A stretch of DNA of 64,000 bases, from assembly GCF_009807095.1 (NCBI RefSeq), contig NZ_WUCC01000005.1, positions 62,001 through 126,000 of the forward strand, written 5' to 3'. Positions 3 to 31,434 of this stretch are shown here, piece by piece. The position numbers were made by a program, and so were the translations under genes. This stretch comes from Rathayibacter sp. VKM Ac-2754. Lineage in GTDB: Bacteria > Actinomycetota > Actinomycetes > Actinomycetales > Microbacteriaceae. Numbering within the stretch: the stretch's first letter is position 1; every line of letters starts with the position of its first letter. The notes under the pieces are model-generated. The model was not told the DNA's origin. It saw only the letters and a program-made list of their open reading frames with translations, and made no database searches.

Positions 3-2501
3 GAGGCCGTCACGGTCGCGCTCGAGGCCGCGTCGCGCCTCCGCCCGATCGTGCTGGTCGTCGAGGATCTGCACTGGGTCGACCCGGCGACGATCGGGGT
101 CCTGCGCTTCCTGGTGCGCGTCGCGACCGCCGGGCGGATCCTCGTGGTCCTCACCTTCCGGAGCGATCAGCTGCGCCGCGGCGATCCACTGCGGGCCTGG
201 CTCCCCGAGCTCGAGCGGAGCGACCGGGTGCAGCGGCGCGAGCTCTCGCGGCTCGACCGGCACGATGTCGAGGCCATGGTCGCCTCCCTCCGCGGTGCCG
301 CGGTCGCCCCGCGCGACCTCGCCCTCGTGGTCGAGCGCACCGAGGGGGTGCCGTTCTTCGTCGAGGAGTTCGCGCGCGCCGAGGCGTCGACGGTGCCCGA
401 CTGCTACCCGGAGTCGCTGCGCGACGTCCTCCTCGCCCGCTACGACGGGCTGAGCGAGCCCACGCAGAAGATCCTGCGCACGCTCTCGGCGGGCGGGACC
501 TGCGTCGAGCACGACCTGATCACCGTGGTCCACGGCGACGCCGAGGCCGTCGAGACGGCCGCGCGCGAGGCGATCGCCGGCGGGGTGCTGGTCGTCGACG
601 GCAGCAGCTACAGCTTCCGGCACGCCCTCGTCCGCGACGCCATCCACGACGAGCTGCTGCCCGGCGAGCGGGTCCGCGCGCACACCTGCTACGCCGACGC
701 GCTCGAGGCCAGGGGCCCGGCCGCCGCCTCCGAGATCTCGTACCACTGGATGGCCGCGCACGACTCCGAGCGGGCCTTCGCCGCCTCGCTCCGCGCCATG
801 GCGCACGCCCGCGCCTCCTTCGCCCACGCCCTCGCCGCGCGCATGGGCGAGCGCGCCCTCGAGCTGTGGGAGCAGGTGCCCGCCGACGCGCACGGGCGCG
901 ATCGCGCCGATCTCCTCGGCTCGACCGCCCACCACTTCCGCGACGCGGGCGAGAGCGAGCGGGCGATCGCGCTCGTCGACGAGGCGCTCGCGATCGAGGG
1001 GCTCGACGCGCCGCGCCGCGCGACGCTCCTGCGCGACAAGGCGTCCTACCTCGCGAACCTCGGGCAGGTCGGCTCCGTCGCCCTGCTGCGCGAGGCGCTC
1101 GCGCTCCTCGGCGGTCCCGCGGAGCCGAGCGTGCTGCGCGCCCGCATCCTCGGCGAGCTCGCCGCGCGGCTGATGCTCGAGGCCGATCTCGACGAGGCCG
1201 TCGCCGTCGCCGACCTGGCCGAGGTGGAGGCCGAGTCGGTCGGTTCGCACGGTCGGAGGAGCGTGGCCGTCAACATCCGCGGCACGGCGCTCGTCGAGCT
1301 CGGCCGGGTCGACGAGGGACTCGCTCAGCTCGAGCTCGCGGGTGCTCTCGCGGGCGATGACGACTCCGCCCGCCTGCGCTACTGGCTCAACCTGTCCGAC
1401 GCCCTCTCGCTCGTCGGGCGGTTCCGCGAGGCGGTCGCCGCGGCCGAGGAGGGCGCCGAGCACGCCCGGCGCCACGGGGTCTCGCGCACCCTCGGCGCGA
1501 TGCTGATGGCGAACGCGGCCGACGCCCTCGCCTCGGTCGGAGAGTGGCGGCGCGCCGAGGAGCTCCTCGACCGGGCGCTCGAGCTCGACGCCCCGCTCGG
1601 CTTCGCCGCGCACCTGCAGCGCCGGAAGCTCTGGACCGTGCTCTGGCGCGGAGATCCGCAGGAGGCGGCGACCCTGCTCGCGCGGTGGCGGCAGCCCCTC
1701 AGCCGCCAGCTGCGCACGGAGCGGCACTCGCTCGTCGGCCTCGCGAAGGTGGCCGGCGCGATCGCGCTCGAGACCGGCGACGTCGGAGCCGCGTGGGCCG
1801 AGGTCCGCGACGCGATCGGTCCCGAGCACCGTCCGCTCCCCTCCGCCGATCTCCTCCTGCTCGTGGTCGTGGCCCGCATCGTGGCCACGGCTCGGCGCGA
1901 GGGGCTGGCGCTCCTCGACCGCGAGGGCCGCCCCGTCGACGCGGAGGCGCGAGTGCGCGCGATCCTCGCCACCGCCTCCGCGTGGCCGACCGCGCCCGCG
2001 TTCGTCGCGGTGATCGAGGCCGAGCTCGGCGGCGCCTCCCGGACGGGCGACGACCCCGCGGCGTGGGCTGCCGCCGCCGCGGCCAACGAGGTGCCGACCG
2101 CGCTGGTGCACCTGCTGCCCTACTCGCGGCTCCGCCTCGCCGAGGCCCTCGCCGCGGTCGGGCGGCGCGAGGAGGCGGAGCGGGAGGCGCGTGCGGCCTG
2201 CGCCGTCGCCGAGAACGCGGGGCTCGGGCTCCTCATCGACGCGGTGAGCCGGTTCGAGCGCCGGCTCGGCCGTGGCGAGGTCCCGGGAGCGATCGCTCCG
2301 CACGGCATCTCCCCGCTCACCGACCGCGAGCGCCAGGTGCTCGCGCTGGTGGCGCAGGGGCTCGGCAACCGCGCGATCGCCGACGAGCTCTTCATCAGCG
2401 TGAAGACGGCGAGCGTGCACGTGTCGAACATCCTCCGCAAGCTCGGCGCGGCGACCCGCACCGAGGCGGCCTACCTGGCGCGGGAGTCCGCGGGGAGCTG
2501 A
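3..2501 (+). CDS. LuxR-family (LAL-type) ATPase transcriptional regulator, 5' partial
   Basis: C-terminal part of a large regulator; the frame is open to the window edge, so the true start lies upstream. The first visible residues hold the Walker B region of a STAND/AAA ATPase (LVVEDLHWVDP), followed by the ATPase lid, a long alanine-rich helical stretch that looks like TPR repeats (roughly 230-740), and a C-terminal LuxR helix-turn-helix (LTDRERQVLALVAQGLGNRA, then FISVKTASVHVSNILRKL). The family activates transcription after ligand sensing by the ATPase/TPR part; the Walker A motif is outside the window. The ligand is unknown. It ends with TGA just before a repeat region and faces the doxX-like gene. 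Confidence 0.9.
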   Translation, partial: EAVTVALEAASRLRPIVLVVEDLHWVDPATIGVLRFLVRVATAGRILVVLTFRSDQLRRGDPLRAWLPELERSDRVQRRELSRLDRHDVEAMVASLRGAAVAPRDLALVVERTEGVPFFVEEFARAEASTVPDCYPESLRDVLLARYDGLSEPTQKILRTLSAGGTCVEHDLITVVHGDAEAVETAAREAIAGGVLVVDGSSYSFRHALVRDAIHDELLPGERVRAHTCYADALEARGPAAASEISYHWMAAHDSERAFAASLRAMAHARASFAHALAARMGERALELWEQVPADAHGRDRADLLGSTAHHFRDAGESERAIALVDEALAIEGLDAPRRATLLRDKASYLANLGQVGSVALLREALALLGGPAEPSVLRARILGELAARLMLEADLDEAVAVADLAEVEAESVGSHGRRSVAVNIRGTALVELGRVDEGLAQLELAGALAGDDDSARLRYWLNLSDALSLVGRFREAVAAAEEGAEHARRHGVSRTLGAMLMANAADALASVGEWRRAEELLDRALELDAPLGFAAHLQRRKLWTVLWRGDPQEAATLLARWRQPLSRQLRTERHSLVGLAKVAGAIALETGDVGAAWAEVRDAIGPEHRPLPSADLLLLVVVARIVATARREGLALLDREGRPVDAEARVRAILATASAWPTAPAFVAVIEAELGGASRTGDDPAAWAAAAAANEVPTALVHLLPYSRLRLAEALAAVGRREEAEREARAACAVAENAGLGLLIDAVSRFERRLGRGEVPGAIAPHGISPLTDRERQVLALVAQGLGNRAIADELFISVKTASVHVSNILRKLGAATRTEAAYLARESAGS

Positions 2502-2559
2502 GCGCGGACCTGCGGTGCGCCGCTCCGGCTCGTCGGACCCCTCGGCGCGTCAAACCGGC

Positions 2560-2635
2560 TTCGGCTCGTGGAACACGGTTCGGCTCGTCGAAACCGACGA
2601 TTTTCGCGAGCCGAACCGGTTTTCACGAGCCGGAG
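2560..2635. repeat. 76-bp four-box quasi-palindrome, copy A
   Basis: Two direct boxes TTCGGCTCG (2560, 2579) are followed by two inverted boxes CGAGCCGAA (2607) and CGAGCCGGAG (2626). Box starts fall at positions 1, 20, 48 and 67 of the unit. The same length and spacing recur in four other copies in this window. A degenerate extra forward box (TCCGGCTCG) lies at 2524. It sits between two convergent genes and is probably non-coding. Confidence 0.85.
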
Positions 2636-2663
2636 GTGCCCAGACCAGGCCCGGGAACCCTCG

Positions 2664-2758
2664 CTCGGCTCGTCGAACGAGATTCGGCTCGTCGAATCGG
2701 CCGGATCCTGGGAGCCGAACCGCGTTTCGCGAGCCGAACGTCGTTCTGCGAGCCGGAG
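2664..2758. repeat. 76-bp four-box quasi-palindrome, copy B, with an extra fifth box
   Basis: Boxes start at 2664 (CTCGGCTCG), 2683 (TTCGGCTCG), 2711 (GGAGCCGAA) and 2730 (CGAGCCGAA), the same 1-20-48-67 spacing as copy A. A further inverted box CGAGCCGGAG follows at 2749-2758. It is more degenerate than the copies near 29.8 kb. The stretch 2502-2775 holds nothing else that I can recognise. Confidence 0.75.
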
Positions 2759-2775: not shown

Positions 2776-3225
2776 TCAGCCCCGGGCTCGGCGCCGCCGC
2801 TCCCGCCAGGCCGAGAACGCGCCCGTCGACCAGAGCGCCCACACCACGAGCAGCGGCTGGAAGACCAGCCGGATCGCGCGCGCCGCGTCCGTCTCGAGAC
2901 CGAAGGCCGGCGTGCGCGTCACCAGCTGCGAGATGTTCCCCGGGAACACCGCGACGAAGAACGCGGCGACCACGACTCCGACGACCACCCGCCACCGCGC
3001 CAGGAGCACGAGCGAGAGCCCGAGCGCGATCTCGACCACCCCCGACGCGACGACCACGAAGTCGGGATCGAGCGGCAGCCACGGCGGCACCTGCGCCTGG
3101 AAGGACTGCCGGGCGAAGCTCAGGTGACCGACGCCGGCCGTCACGAGGACGACACCCAGGAGGATCCGGGCGATCGTGCGCGGGACGGAGCGGCGTCCGC
3201 CGGCGCGGGAGGTGCGGTCGGTCAT
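2776..3225 (-). CDS. DoxX-like small membrane protein
   Basis: 149 aa with four predicted membrane segments (about 17-36, 58-77, 80-98 and 120-140), a basic N-terminus (TDRTSRAGGRRS) and an Arg-rich C-terminus, which is the topology of DoxX/SURF4-like proteins. Family members are small quinone- or thiosulfate-related membrane proteins of mostly unknown role, so no substrate can be assigned. The conserved-looking stretch GVGHLSFARQSFQAQVPPWL in the first loop fits the actinobacterial DoxX-like group. It is a single gene converging on the LuxR regulator, with the repeat region between the two stops. Confidence 0.75.
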   Translation of the reverse strand: MTDRTSRAGGRRSVPRTIARILLGVVLVTAGVGHLSFARQSFQAQVPPWLPLDPDFVVVASGVVEIALGLSLVLLARWRVVVGVVVAAFFVAVFPGNISQLVTRTPAFGLETDAARAIRLVFQPLLVVWALWSTGAFSAWRERRRRARG

Positions 3226-6923: not shown

Positions 6924-6972
6924 CGGTCGTGCGGCCAGAACCCGCCCGACGCCGACGCCGCACCCCACACCC

Positions 6973-7181
6973 GCTCGCGCCGAAGGCGCGGCCCTCCGAC
7001 ACCAGCTCGCGCCGAAGGCGCGGCCCTCTGACGCTTGCTCGCGCCCAAGGCGCGGCCCCCTGGCACCTGCTCGCGCTGAAAGCGCGGCTCGCTCACACCT
7101 GCTCGCGCTGAAAGCGCGGCCCTCTGACACCTGCTCGCGCTGAAAGCGCGGCTGCTGACCGCTCGTGCCGAAGGCACGGCC
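6973..7181. repeat. Seven-unit 32-bp tandem hairpin array with covarying stems
   Basis: Units start at 6973, 7005, 7037, 7069, 7101, 7133 and 7161; the period is exactly 32 bp except the last step (28). Each unit carries a 6-bp stem with a three-base loop. Units 1-3 have CGCGCC/GGCGCG, units 4-6 CGCGCT/AGCGCG, unit 7 CGTGCC/GGCACG; the loop is GAA (CAA in unit 3). Both stem changes are compensatory. The linkers resemble CCCTCTGACACCT. It lies in the 3'-3' gap between MFS and the DUF3151 gene. Apart from this array, the inverted repeat before it and the palindrome after it, the 450-nt gap 6851-7300 shows nothing. Confidence 0.9.
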
Positions 7182-7201
7182 CCCCTCACCCCTGCAGGAG
7201 T

Positions 7202-7309
7202 GCTGATTAGCCTCCGGTTGCGGTGATCGCAAGGCGGAGGAGGAAGTCGTAGCGGAGCTACGACGCCCGACGACAACGCCGCGAGCGCCGTGACCGGAGG
7301 CTAATCAGC
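7202..7309. repeat. 108-bp palindromic element overlapping the DUF3151 stop codon
   Basis: Outer arms GCTGATTAGCCTCCGGT (7202-7218) and its exact complement (7293-7309), with an internal perfect hairpin GTCGTAGC-GGA-GCTACGAC (7246-7264). The right arm supplies the last two codons and the TAG stop of the DUF3151 gene. I recall similar GCTGATTAGCCTCCGG elements in other Microbacteriaceae genomes, but cannot check this here. It may act as a bidirectional terminator. Confidence 0.8.
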
Positions 7310-7780
7310 CCCGAGGATGACTATGGCGGCGGTGGGGGGAAGCGCATCCTCGTGGTACCGCTCGATCTCGGGGATCGCGCGGGGGTCGGCCTGGTCGAGG
7401 AAGCCGGTGAGGCGGTCGACCTCGTCGGTCTCGCCGATCGATTCGGCGGCACGGCGGAGGGCGTAGAGGGCGAGGAGGAATCCGCGGTTGGGTCCGTGGC
7501 GCCAGGGGATCGGGCCCTGGCCCCGCCAGCCGGCGGTGCGGAGCAGGTCGAGGCCGCGGTGGTAGCCGACGCGCGCGTAGGCGTAGGACGGCAGCGCGGC
7601 GTCGATGCCCCAGACGCTGTCGGCGAGCAGTGCCCAGGCGAGGGGGGAGCGCGGGTGGGCCGCGGCGAGCGCGGCGAACTCGACGGCTCCGGGGCTCGCG
7701 TGCTTGGCGAGCGCCGCGGTCACCGCGGGCTCGTCCGGGAGGAGGGTCGGTTCGGGGCCCAGCAGGTTCTCGCCACTCAT
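7301..7780 (-). CDS. DUF3151 domain-containing protein
   Basis: 159 aa, the usual length of this actinobacterial family. Typical features are the start LLGPEPTLLP, the central YAYARVGYHRGLDLLR stretch, then GPIPWRHGPNRGFLLAL and an acidic C-terminal half. The family is widely conserved in Actinobacteria but has no established function. The last codons (Ala-Asp-stop) lie inside the right arm of a large palindrome, so the present C-terminus may have been set by insertion of that element. Divergent from the HAD-IIA gene at 7868. Confidence 0.85.
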   Translation of the reverse strand: MSGENLLGPEPTLLPDEPAVTAALAKHASPGAVEFAALAAAHPRSPLAWALLADSVWGIDAALPSYAYARVGYHRGLDLLRTAGWRGQGPIPWRHGPNRGFLLALYALRRAAESIGETDEVDRLTGFLDQADPRAIPEIERYHEDALPPTAAIVILGAD

Positions 7781-29756: not shown

Positions 29757-30016
29757 TTCGGCTCGTGGAAACACGTTCGGCTCGCAGGAACTCGCGGATT
29801 TCGCGAGCCGAATGGGATTCCGCGAGCCGGAGACAGCTGCCGGGCGAGTTCGGCTCGTGGGAACACCTTCGGCTCGCGAGATGCGCCGGATTCGACGAGC
29901 CGAACGCGATCCTGCGAGCCGGAGATGACGCTCGACGACGTTCGGCTCGCGGAAACACGTCCGGCTCGCAGGATCCGGCGGATCGGACGAGCCGAAGCGG
30001 ATCCTGCGAGCCGGAG
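29757..30016. repeat. Array of three 76-bp four-box quasi-palindromes (copies C, D, E), 92-bp period
   Basis: Copies at 29757-29832, 29849-29924 and 29941-30016, each exactly 76 bp and separated by two 16-bp spacers of unrelated sequence. Each has boxes TTCGGCTCG at 1 and 20 (TCCGGCTCG at 20 in copy E) and CGAGCCGAA at 48 and CGAGCCGGAG at 67. They fill the gap between the lpd stop and the GNAT start. The 92-bp period is not a multiple of three, so a repeated coding function is unlikely. Confidence 0.92.
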
Positions 30017-30033: not shown

Positions 30034-31434
30034 CTACAGGTTGATCATGTGCCCCTTGAGGCCGTGGAAGCCCTCCTGGAGCGCCTCCGACAGCGTCGGG
30101 TGGGTGTGCACGTTGCGCGCCAGCTCGGTGGCCGTGAGGTCCCACTTCTGCGCGAGCGTGAGCTCGGGGAGCAGCTCGGAGACGTCCGGTCCGATCATGT
30201 GGCCGCCGAGGAGCTCGCCGTACTTCTTGCTCGCGATGAGCTTCACGAAGCCGGTGGGCTCGCCGAGGCCGTGCGCCTTGCCGTTCGCCATGAACGGGAA
30301 GGTCGTGACGGTGATCTCGTGGCCCTCGTCGGTCGCCTGCTTCTCGGTGAGGCCGAAGGAGGCGATCTGCGGCTGGCAGAAGGTCGCGCGCGGCATCATC
30401 CGGTAGTCGCCCAGCGTCTGGGTCTCGGCACCGGCGATGGTCTCGGCGGCGACGACGCCCTGCGCCTCCGCGACGTGCGCGAGCTGGAGCTTCGCGGTGA
30501 CGTCGCCGATGGCGTAGATGCCGGGGACGTTGGTGCGCATGTGGTCGTCGATCGCGATCGCGCCGCGCTCGGTGAGCTCGACGCCGGTCTTCTCGAGGCC
30601 GAAGCCCTCGACGCGCGGGACCCAGCCGATCGACATGAGGACCTTGTCGACCTCGAGGGTCGACTGCGTGCCGTCCTTGCCGGTGTACGTGACGGTGACG
30701 TAGCCGTCCTTGTCGACGACCGACTCGACCTTGGTCGAGGTGAGGATCTCGACTCCGAGCTTCTTGTACTGCTTCTGGATCTCCTTGGAGACGTCCGGGT
30801 CCTCGTTGGGGAGGGCGCGGTCCATGAACTCGATGATCGTGACGTCGACGCCGTAGTTCTTCAGGACGTAGGCGAACTCCATGCCGATCGCACCCGCGCC
30901 CACGATGGCCATCGTGTCGGGCAGGTCGCGGGTCATGATCTGCGTCTCGTAGGTGACGACGTTCTCGCTCAGCTCGACGCCCGGCAGGAGGCGGACGCTC
31001 GCGCCGGTCGCGATGATCGCGTCGTCGAAGGTGATCGACTCCGTGCCGCCCTTGCTCAGCTCGACGTCGATGCCCTTCGGGCCGGTGAACGAGCCGGTGC
31101 CGTCGAACTCGGTGATCTTGTTCTTCTTCATCAGGAAGTGGACGCCCTTGACGCGGCCCTCGGCCACGCTGCGGCTGCGGTCGAACGCCGCGCCGAAGTC
31201 GAAGGAGACGTCACCCGAGATGCCGAACTGCTTGGCCTGCGAGTGGAAGATGTGGGCGAGCTCGGCGTTGCGCAGCAGCGCCTTCGACGGGATGCAGCCG
31301 ACGTTGAGGCAGACACCGCCCCAGTACTGCTTCTCGACGACGGCGACGGACTTGCCGAGCTGCGCTGCGCGGATCGCGGCCACGTAGCCGCCGGGGCCCG
31401 CCCCCAGGACGACGACGTCGAAGTGCTGGGCCAT
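30034..31434 (-). CDS. lpd: Dihydrolipoyl dehydrogenase (E3)
   Basis: 466 aa FAD/NAD disulfide oxidoreductase; reoxidises dihydrolipoamide of pyruvate/2-oxoglutarate dehydrogenase or glycine cleavage complexes. FAD-binding [17 protein letters not shown], redox disulfide [16 protein letters not shown]-binding [10 protein letters not shown], second FAD motif GIYAIGDVT, and the C-terminal HTHPTLSEA catalytic His-Glu are all intact. ATG at 31434 has GGAGGATCATCAC upstream; the longer frame is not supported. Divergent from the nitroreductase gene. Confidence 0.96.

Follow-up and report, generated by a model that had tools for sequence, protein, structure and literature searches.

The two palindromic loci of the window (the whole stretch of 64,000 nucleotides that was analysed) belong to a family of multi-box arrays, which so far is confined to Rathayibacter within the samples searched. 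The computed results are the family itself, its geometry, its restriction to the genus in these samples, its position at gene 3' ends and the conservation of its sequence without a pairing constraint. Three further properties we infer from the letters of the DNA, namely that a protein would bind the arrays, that it would bind DNA and not RNA and that it would limit transcription. We tentatively interpret the arrays, with somewhat less than even confidence, as putative protein-bound bidirectional 3'-end boundaries that would act as a roadblock or topologically.

Anatomy and distribution of the arrays

The five copies of a four-box plan that an earlier note had described for the window are all present at the positions it gave (boxes starting at 1, 20, 48 and 67; <=3 mismatches; Table 1), and the pattern yielded exactly five matches versus none in 100 dinucleotide-preserving shuffles. 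The copy at 2664 is in its place, but it is a five-box and not a four-box unit, and two weaker boxes, at 2524 and 2541, precede the first copy. The 92-bp period claimed for the second locus was recovered over 29757-30016 (2.8 copies). The first gene of the window stops 58 bp ahead of the first four-box unit and 39 bp ahead of the weak box at 2541, and the second array is located downstream of the Pyr_redox_2 gene. Rfam matches at gathering score are absent from the window. An intergenic 32-bp tandem array with small GC hairpins (5.8 copies, 87% matches) is directly followed by a long inverted repeat, which is perhaps a terminator or a MITE-like element.

Table 1. Coordinates of the arrays, flanking genes and further repeats in the window and in stretches of Leaf185
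Feature	Sequence	Coordinates	Strand	Remarks
Gene	window	3..2501	+	own gene caller, open at window start; listed ORF 51-2501
Weak extra box	window	2541..2549	+	2 mismatches; 19 bp ahead of first unit; could be chance
Four-box unit >><<	window	2560..2634	.	boxes 2560, 2579, 2607, 2626; 0 mismatches to pattern
Five-box unit >><<<	window	2664..2757	.	boxes 2664 (CTCGGCTCG), 2683, 2711 (degenerate, GGAGCCGAA), 2730, 2749 (CGAGCCGGA)
Convergent gene, 149 aa	window	2776..3225	-	no NCBIfam match; stop 18 bp from first array
32-bp tandem array	window	6966-7182		intergenic
Long inverted repeat	window	7203-7312		ends CTGATTAGCCTCCGGT / ACCGGAGGCTAATCAG
Four-box unit 1/3 of 92-bp array	window	29757..29831	.	
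Four-box unit 2/3 of 92-bp array	window	29849..29923	.	
Four-box unit 3/3 of 92-bp array	window	29941..30015	.	unit aligned at Leaf185 orthologous site
Pyr_redox_2 gene (dihydrolipoamide dehydrogenase-like)	window	30034..31434	-	stop 18 bp from second array
59-bp palindrome	Leaf185, L223	13019-13077		
59-bp palindrome	Leaf185, L224	17942-18000		
59-bp palindrome	Leaf185, L226	10385-10443		
59-bp palindrome	Leaf185, L234	2865-2923		
59-bp palindrome	Leaf185, L234	4043-4101		

In an ungapped alignment of 64 units the cores CGGCTCG and CGAGCCG are nearly invariant. The outer boxes are mostly TCCGGCTCG with ACC and GGT flanks and the inner boxes are TTCGGCTCG; with 5-bp flanks included, the consensus runs from ACC and TCCGGCTCG to CGAGCCGGA and GGTGC. 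Each box is followed by YNRRA and then by W-C: position 14 is A in 62 of the 64 units and position 33 in 60, and T occupies position 43 in 62 units and position 62 in 61. The repeat is therefore an oriented unit of ~16 bp, TTCGGCTCG-YNRRA-WC. The repeated unit TTCGGCTCGYNRRAWC is not self-complementary, and symmetry arises only between the arms. The three bases after the box exhibit a strong local dependence (CAG 102, CGG 60, TCG 41, CGA 23, TGA 22 and CAA 1 among the 320 arms of 80 units from the window's own genome).

The fixed spacing described in the earlier note also holds for most neighbouring boxes read in this genome. Among neighbouring boxes of 57 loci (<=1 mismatch, within 60 bp), a same-arm pitch of 19 bp was recorded for 70/86 and 76/96 pairs, and the pitch across the centre is 28 bp in 73 of 84. 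Close units follow each other at a distance of 26 or 27 bp in nine of 22 pairs. The arms mostly comprise two boxes, with a maximum of four. The longest arrays consist of three units in the own genome and, in G006 (L100), of nine units with a period of exactly 92 bp. The box of G008 reads TCCGGC(A/T)CG, with unchanged geometry.

The genome-wide search for the four-box pattern that had been proposed revealed dozens of copies and places the five of the window within a family that spans the genus. Within the 24 contigs of the own genome (3.97 Mb) there are 76 forward and 67 reverse matches to TTCGGCTCG N36-42 CGAGCCG, a count to which a single array can contribute several, versus 0 and 1 in the reversed control. 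Exact box pairs at the 19-bp pitch number 30 (20 forward, 10 reverse) versus none in the control, and a centre gap of 21 instead of 19, the spacing control, showed no excess (16 matches with <=1 mismatch vs 32 in the control). The one-mismatch count (130 vs 107 in the control) is swamped by chance and unusable as a copy number. The 57 loci, i.e. the window and 56 stretches mostly picked for two-box or box-pair matches, harbor 80 four-box units, which were grouped into 59 sites.

An exact four-box scan of 84,980 species genomes (genome_contigs), from which the window's own genome is possibly absent, returned 23 stretches, all located in three Rathayibacter genomes (Leaf185, SD072 and VKM Ac-2630). 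The Microbacteriaceae named in the earlier note are thus the correct family, with Rathayibacter as the genus. A sequence model built from 58 four-box units found matches in all 15 Rathayibacter genomes searched, with 6 to at least ~150 per genome when both strands are counted (at least ~150 in G000, G006, G007 and G011). Under stricter filters, the only three strong matches among 150 sampled family genomes were those of Rathayibacter; one or two model hits at E 1e-4 to 1e-3 in four of the other 147 are taken as chance. Of 299 family genomes, which cover 85 genera, five contain the exact three-box pattern, and these five belong to a single genus. A phage origin was rejected, with no exact two-box match in viral_contigs. 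A literature search of titles and the starts of abstracts found no description of the four-box plan, which is a weak negative; an excerpt of PMC5552033 treats CRISPR and other repeats.

Position behind genes and turnover between genomes

The 59 positioned sites, defined as chained boxes per intergenic region with a rough codon-usage gene caller, comprise 27 convergent, 26 tandem and five divergent ones and one within a called gene, whereas element-free intergenic regions of >=90 bp in the same stretches comprise 13 convergent, 72 tandem and 51 divergent ones. For each of the 26 tandem sites, the upstream stop (at a median of 19 bp) is closer than the next start (median 99.5 bp). In other species, 43 distinct loci are distributed over 22 tandem, 14 convergent and six divergent positions and one called gene, and 19 of the 22 tandem loci are nearer to the stop (G008 8/9, G001/G003 4/6, others 6/6, Leaf185 1/1). 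The clustering between convergent genes that the earlier note had considered is real but an incomplete description, as the fixed point is the gene 3' end and tandem pairs are occupied as well.

The scan of 20 stop-proximal proteins, representing 20 of the 26 listed tandem sites and none of the four listed convergent ones, showed that they are unrelated (one is without Pfam match), and a regulon marked by the arrays was rejected on this basis. Array-bearing genes include an lpd-like gene, hemD, an asparagine synthase, a LacI regulator and an Fe-S protein with succinate-dehydrogenase-type domains. With only 59 sites read in a genome of 4 Mb, most gene ends are without an array.

The comparison with Leaf185 is based on 16 stretches taken by gene order, which are less biased than orthologues picked by their boxes. 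Fourteen of the 59 sites could be mapped; eight of them keep boxes and six are without boxes (two of the six are uncertain), the array thus being dispensable at a given gene. The first site of the window is absent in Leaf185, where its two convergent genes nearly touch, and the second site retains a single unit out of three, with 0/28 differences in cores and 4/39 in spacers. Seven well-aligned retained units differ at 1/188 core and 41/258 spacer positions, a contrast that presupposes a still recognisable element and omits L055 (gappy) as well as L054 and L068 (anchors far apart, scattered alignment). The eighth retained site, the badly aligned L055, shows 6/40 differences in cores and 16/64 in spacers, and pooling of all Leaf185-aligned units, doubtful ones included, gives 17/250 and 54/350. 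Nine box-picked orthologous units differ at 7/252 core and 70/351 spacer positions; 11 of 20 rows had passed the spacer threshold (35/308 in cores, 91/429 in spacers), of which L058:3016/L085 (chance match) and L052/L102 (indel) were dropped. Arrays are gained, lost and expanded as blocks, and their boxes are held where they are kept. The selection that the earlier note had read from fixed spacing and divergent filler is supported, with cores kept at seven of the eight retained Leaf185 sites and diverged spacers.

Leaf185 also harbors a second palindromic family, unrelated to the arrays, of exactly 59 bp with arms GGAACCAGTTCTCG.. (Table 1). Leaf185 stretches totalling 449 kb contain five distinct copies, versus none in 398 kb of the own genome, 320 kb of G008 and 168 kb of G007; two Leaf185 sites at which the own genome has four-box arrays carry this palindrome.

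Constraints on sequence and on pairing

Watson-Crick pairing across the dyad of 62 non-redundant units amounts to 1625 pairs versus 1673 expected from column shuffles, and there is thus no covariation; the folded-RNA option of the earlier note is not supported on this point. The strongest couplings among 140 units connect adjacent bases (29-30, 46-47, 10-11 and 64-65), and the top 30 contain a single mirror pair, 37-39 at the centre, and one long-range non-mirror pair (17-55). Mirror positions that pair above the shuffled level are 14-62 in the own genome, 31-45 in Leaf185 and 13-63 in the others. Spacers of the 80 own units pair across the dyad even less than shuffled ones (781 vs 833.5; 0/300 shuffles as low), most strongly at positions 34-42. 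The corresponding values are 240 versus 243.9 in Leaf185 (24 units; 97/300 shuffles as low) and 357 versus 362.4 in other species (36 units; 99/300), and a possible avoidance of perfect palindromes in the own genome is not repeated there.

A preference for G-U on the transcribed strand is not seen in 36 tandem units (G-T 88 vs A-C 92); 38 convergent units, whose strand is arbitrary, gave G-T 101 and A-C 75, showing the noise of this wobble test. In G008, the core positions 7-69 and 26-50 are paired in eight and 12 of 26 units versus 10.8 and 14.3 in shuffles, and the boxes are mispaired A-A in 10 of the 26 units at each of two core positions, without compensation. An RNA copy of an array would still fold, with a median of 30/37 positions paired, G-U included, but no unit of 80 is fully paired (maximum 34/37).

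Long stems occur at element-free 3' ends (22/78 vs 4/78 shuffled), of which the 12 strongest-folding ones listed carry mostly long near-perfect stems of unrelated sequences. Behind arrays there is no excess of long stems (1/23 vs 2/23 shuffled), and a T-run, defined as 4 T within any 6-nt stretch of the next 15 nt, follows none of the 36 tandem units. The median z of predicted folding is -2.05 at 3' ends with arrays and -1.01 without arrays (first 70 of each list), with -0.33 in divergent controls (n=39). An RNA hairpin as the main constraint was rejected because of the lacking covariation, the lacking G-U bias and the box mismatches in G008. The fixed geometry, the oriented unit, the conservation of sequence without pairing and the strand symmetry point to a recognition of double-stranded DNA, and a 3'-end boundary is suggested by the location downstream of stop codons without surplus hairpins behind the arrays.

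Candidate function and comparison with known systems

Of the three options raised in the earlier note, protein binding provides the best fit to the sequences, the binding protein itself being putative. A sequence-specific double-stranded-DNA-binding protein would read the oriented TTCGGCTCG-YNRRA-WC units, usually two or more per arm, in arms that face each other with rigid phasing. Bound ~20 bp behind stop codons, it would act as a symmetric boundary at which RNA polymerase coming from either direction is halted or slowed, or at which torsion is relieved. The array would thereby take on the 3'-end job that is seemingly done by hairpin-terminator-like stems behind further genes of this genome. 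The five divergent sites of the own genome and the six in other species do not fit this boundary reading.

A rather unlikely alternative is an old REP- or REPIN-like dispersed family, its transposase not seen here and now mostly immobile, for which the space behind stop codons would be preferred or tolerated and the identity of the boxes would reflect transposase recognition. Its convergent or unidirectional 3'-end placement is that of REPs (excerpt of PMC3733652), its conserved inverted ends and less conserved spacer correspond to the REPIN plan (excerpt of PMC3116915), it grows in tandem (92-bp arrays, including the nine units in L100) and whole arrays are present or absent between genomes that are ~90% alike. 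The Y1 (RAYT-type) transposase PF01797 has no match in the own genome, however, with positive control matches in five of 14 known genomes, and cores outlast spacers at one and the same locus. Recent transposition is also not visible in inter-locus similarity or in the donor comparison. The spacers of different loci are barely more alike than column-shuffled ones (median.590 vs.579; 80 units, 3136 pairs), with a slight excess among the most alike pairs (top.846 vs.803) that would speak for mobility, and for nine units that Leaf185 lacks, donors are no closer than for 15 kept ones (best donor median.77 vs.79). The REPIN-like mobile family of the earlier note thus stands with respect to location and tandem growth, but not with respect to a Y1 transposase in the own genome, clear recent copies and compensatory changes.

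RNA stem-loops that serve as intrinsic terminators or 3' mRNA stabilisers are quite improbable. The placement behind stop codons and the strong predicted folding at array 3' ends are what they would predict, but compensatory changes, a G-U bias, fully paired units and T-runs are all missing, the G008 boxes contain mismatches, and array-free 3' ends show the reverse pattern of long stems with unrelated sequences. We give equally little credence to binding sites for gyrase or for a factor that organises the chromosome, with a 3'-end position that would follow from supercoiling between convergent genes. Gyrase binding has been proposed for some E. coli BIMEs. The unrelated neighbouring genes (20 proteins) are in accordance with such an organiser, and so is a density of loci that rises towards dnaA in each of four genomes (KS p 0.0012 for the 113 pooled loci; DnaA identity confirmed), calculated without three weak or fragmentary G008 matches and with G007 loci that are among the matches listed. 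The gradient is weak, however, and below p 0.05 in only two of the four genomes (G008 0.006, G007 0.03, G001 0.20, G003 0.19), the species are not independent, and a greater stability of gene order around the origin could explain it; moreover, the tight placement of tandem sites next to the stop codon is not something an organiser would require. The density of array loci declines from dnaA to the terminus, and one side of dnaA holds more of them in G008 (29 to 9) and G003 (16 to 5). Origin-specific sites were rejected in view of the weak dnaA gradient, and sampled GC skew, which showed no clear origin, was not used.

Dispersed 3'-end repeats of bacteria (REPs, REPINs) are usually read as RNA or single-stranded DNA hairpins, and many of them have been moved by RAYT transposases. 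The array family shares the placement of REPs, but a pairing constraint is not visible and the own genome lacks a Y1 transposase; location behind genes and folding are thereby separated. Should the arrays be read by a protein, gene boundaries made by proteins could be tested directly in bacteria, in a genus of which leaf isolates have been sequenced.

The arrays are placed like REPs, but the REP and REPIN hallmarks of tag, unit palindrome, RAYT (own genome) and compensatory changes fail. According to an excerpt of PMC3733652, REPs are mostly convergent or unidirectional near gene 3' ends, and convergent REPs of two diagrammed species lie mostly within 20 bp of the 3' ends. Arrays resemble the REPs and BIMEs of that excerpt in being dispersed, intergenic, mainly convergent or unidirectional near 3' ends (53 of the 59 own sites are convergent or tandem) and single or clustered. 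They differ in that the array unit is an oriented ~16-bp site instead of a 20-40 bp palindrome, that the 64 units with their 5-bp flanks are without the terminal GTAG or CGTC tag of the definition in the excerpt, and that stem covariation and, in the own genome, a RAYT are lacking. REPINs are described in an excerpt of PMC3116915 as conserved inverted ends around a less conserved spacer of fixed length, with common compensatory changes; in the GI doublets of SBW25, the first residues of the two 16-mers are 71 bp apart. Arrays likewise have conserved inverted ends, a less conserved fixed-length spacer and tandem clusters, but usually contain four and sometimes more boxes at a 19/28-bp pitch, lack compensatory changes and a Y1 transposase in the own genome, and seem to include few alike dispersed copies.

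Intrinsic terminators share the location behind stop codons, and the arrays are apparently an alternative to their hairpins; in the arrays, however, the sequence and not the complementarity is conserved and a T-run is missing. The Reb1/TTF-I type terminators of eukaryotes are protein roadblocks, and the clustered putative binding sites of the arrays could stop a polymerase likewise. LacI-type roadblocking is another such case, and roadblocking of RNA polymerase is treated in excerpts of PMC4132739 and PMC10310618. It is a doubtful extension of the boundary reading that Rathayibacter may possess a dedicated protein-dependent bidirectional termination (roadblock) system with a putative DNA-binding protein; just as doubtfully, fixed-geometry four-site arrays behind selected genes would serve as hairpin terminators do elsewhere, as a bacterial counterpart of the eukaryotic roadblock terminators.
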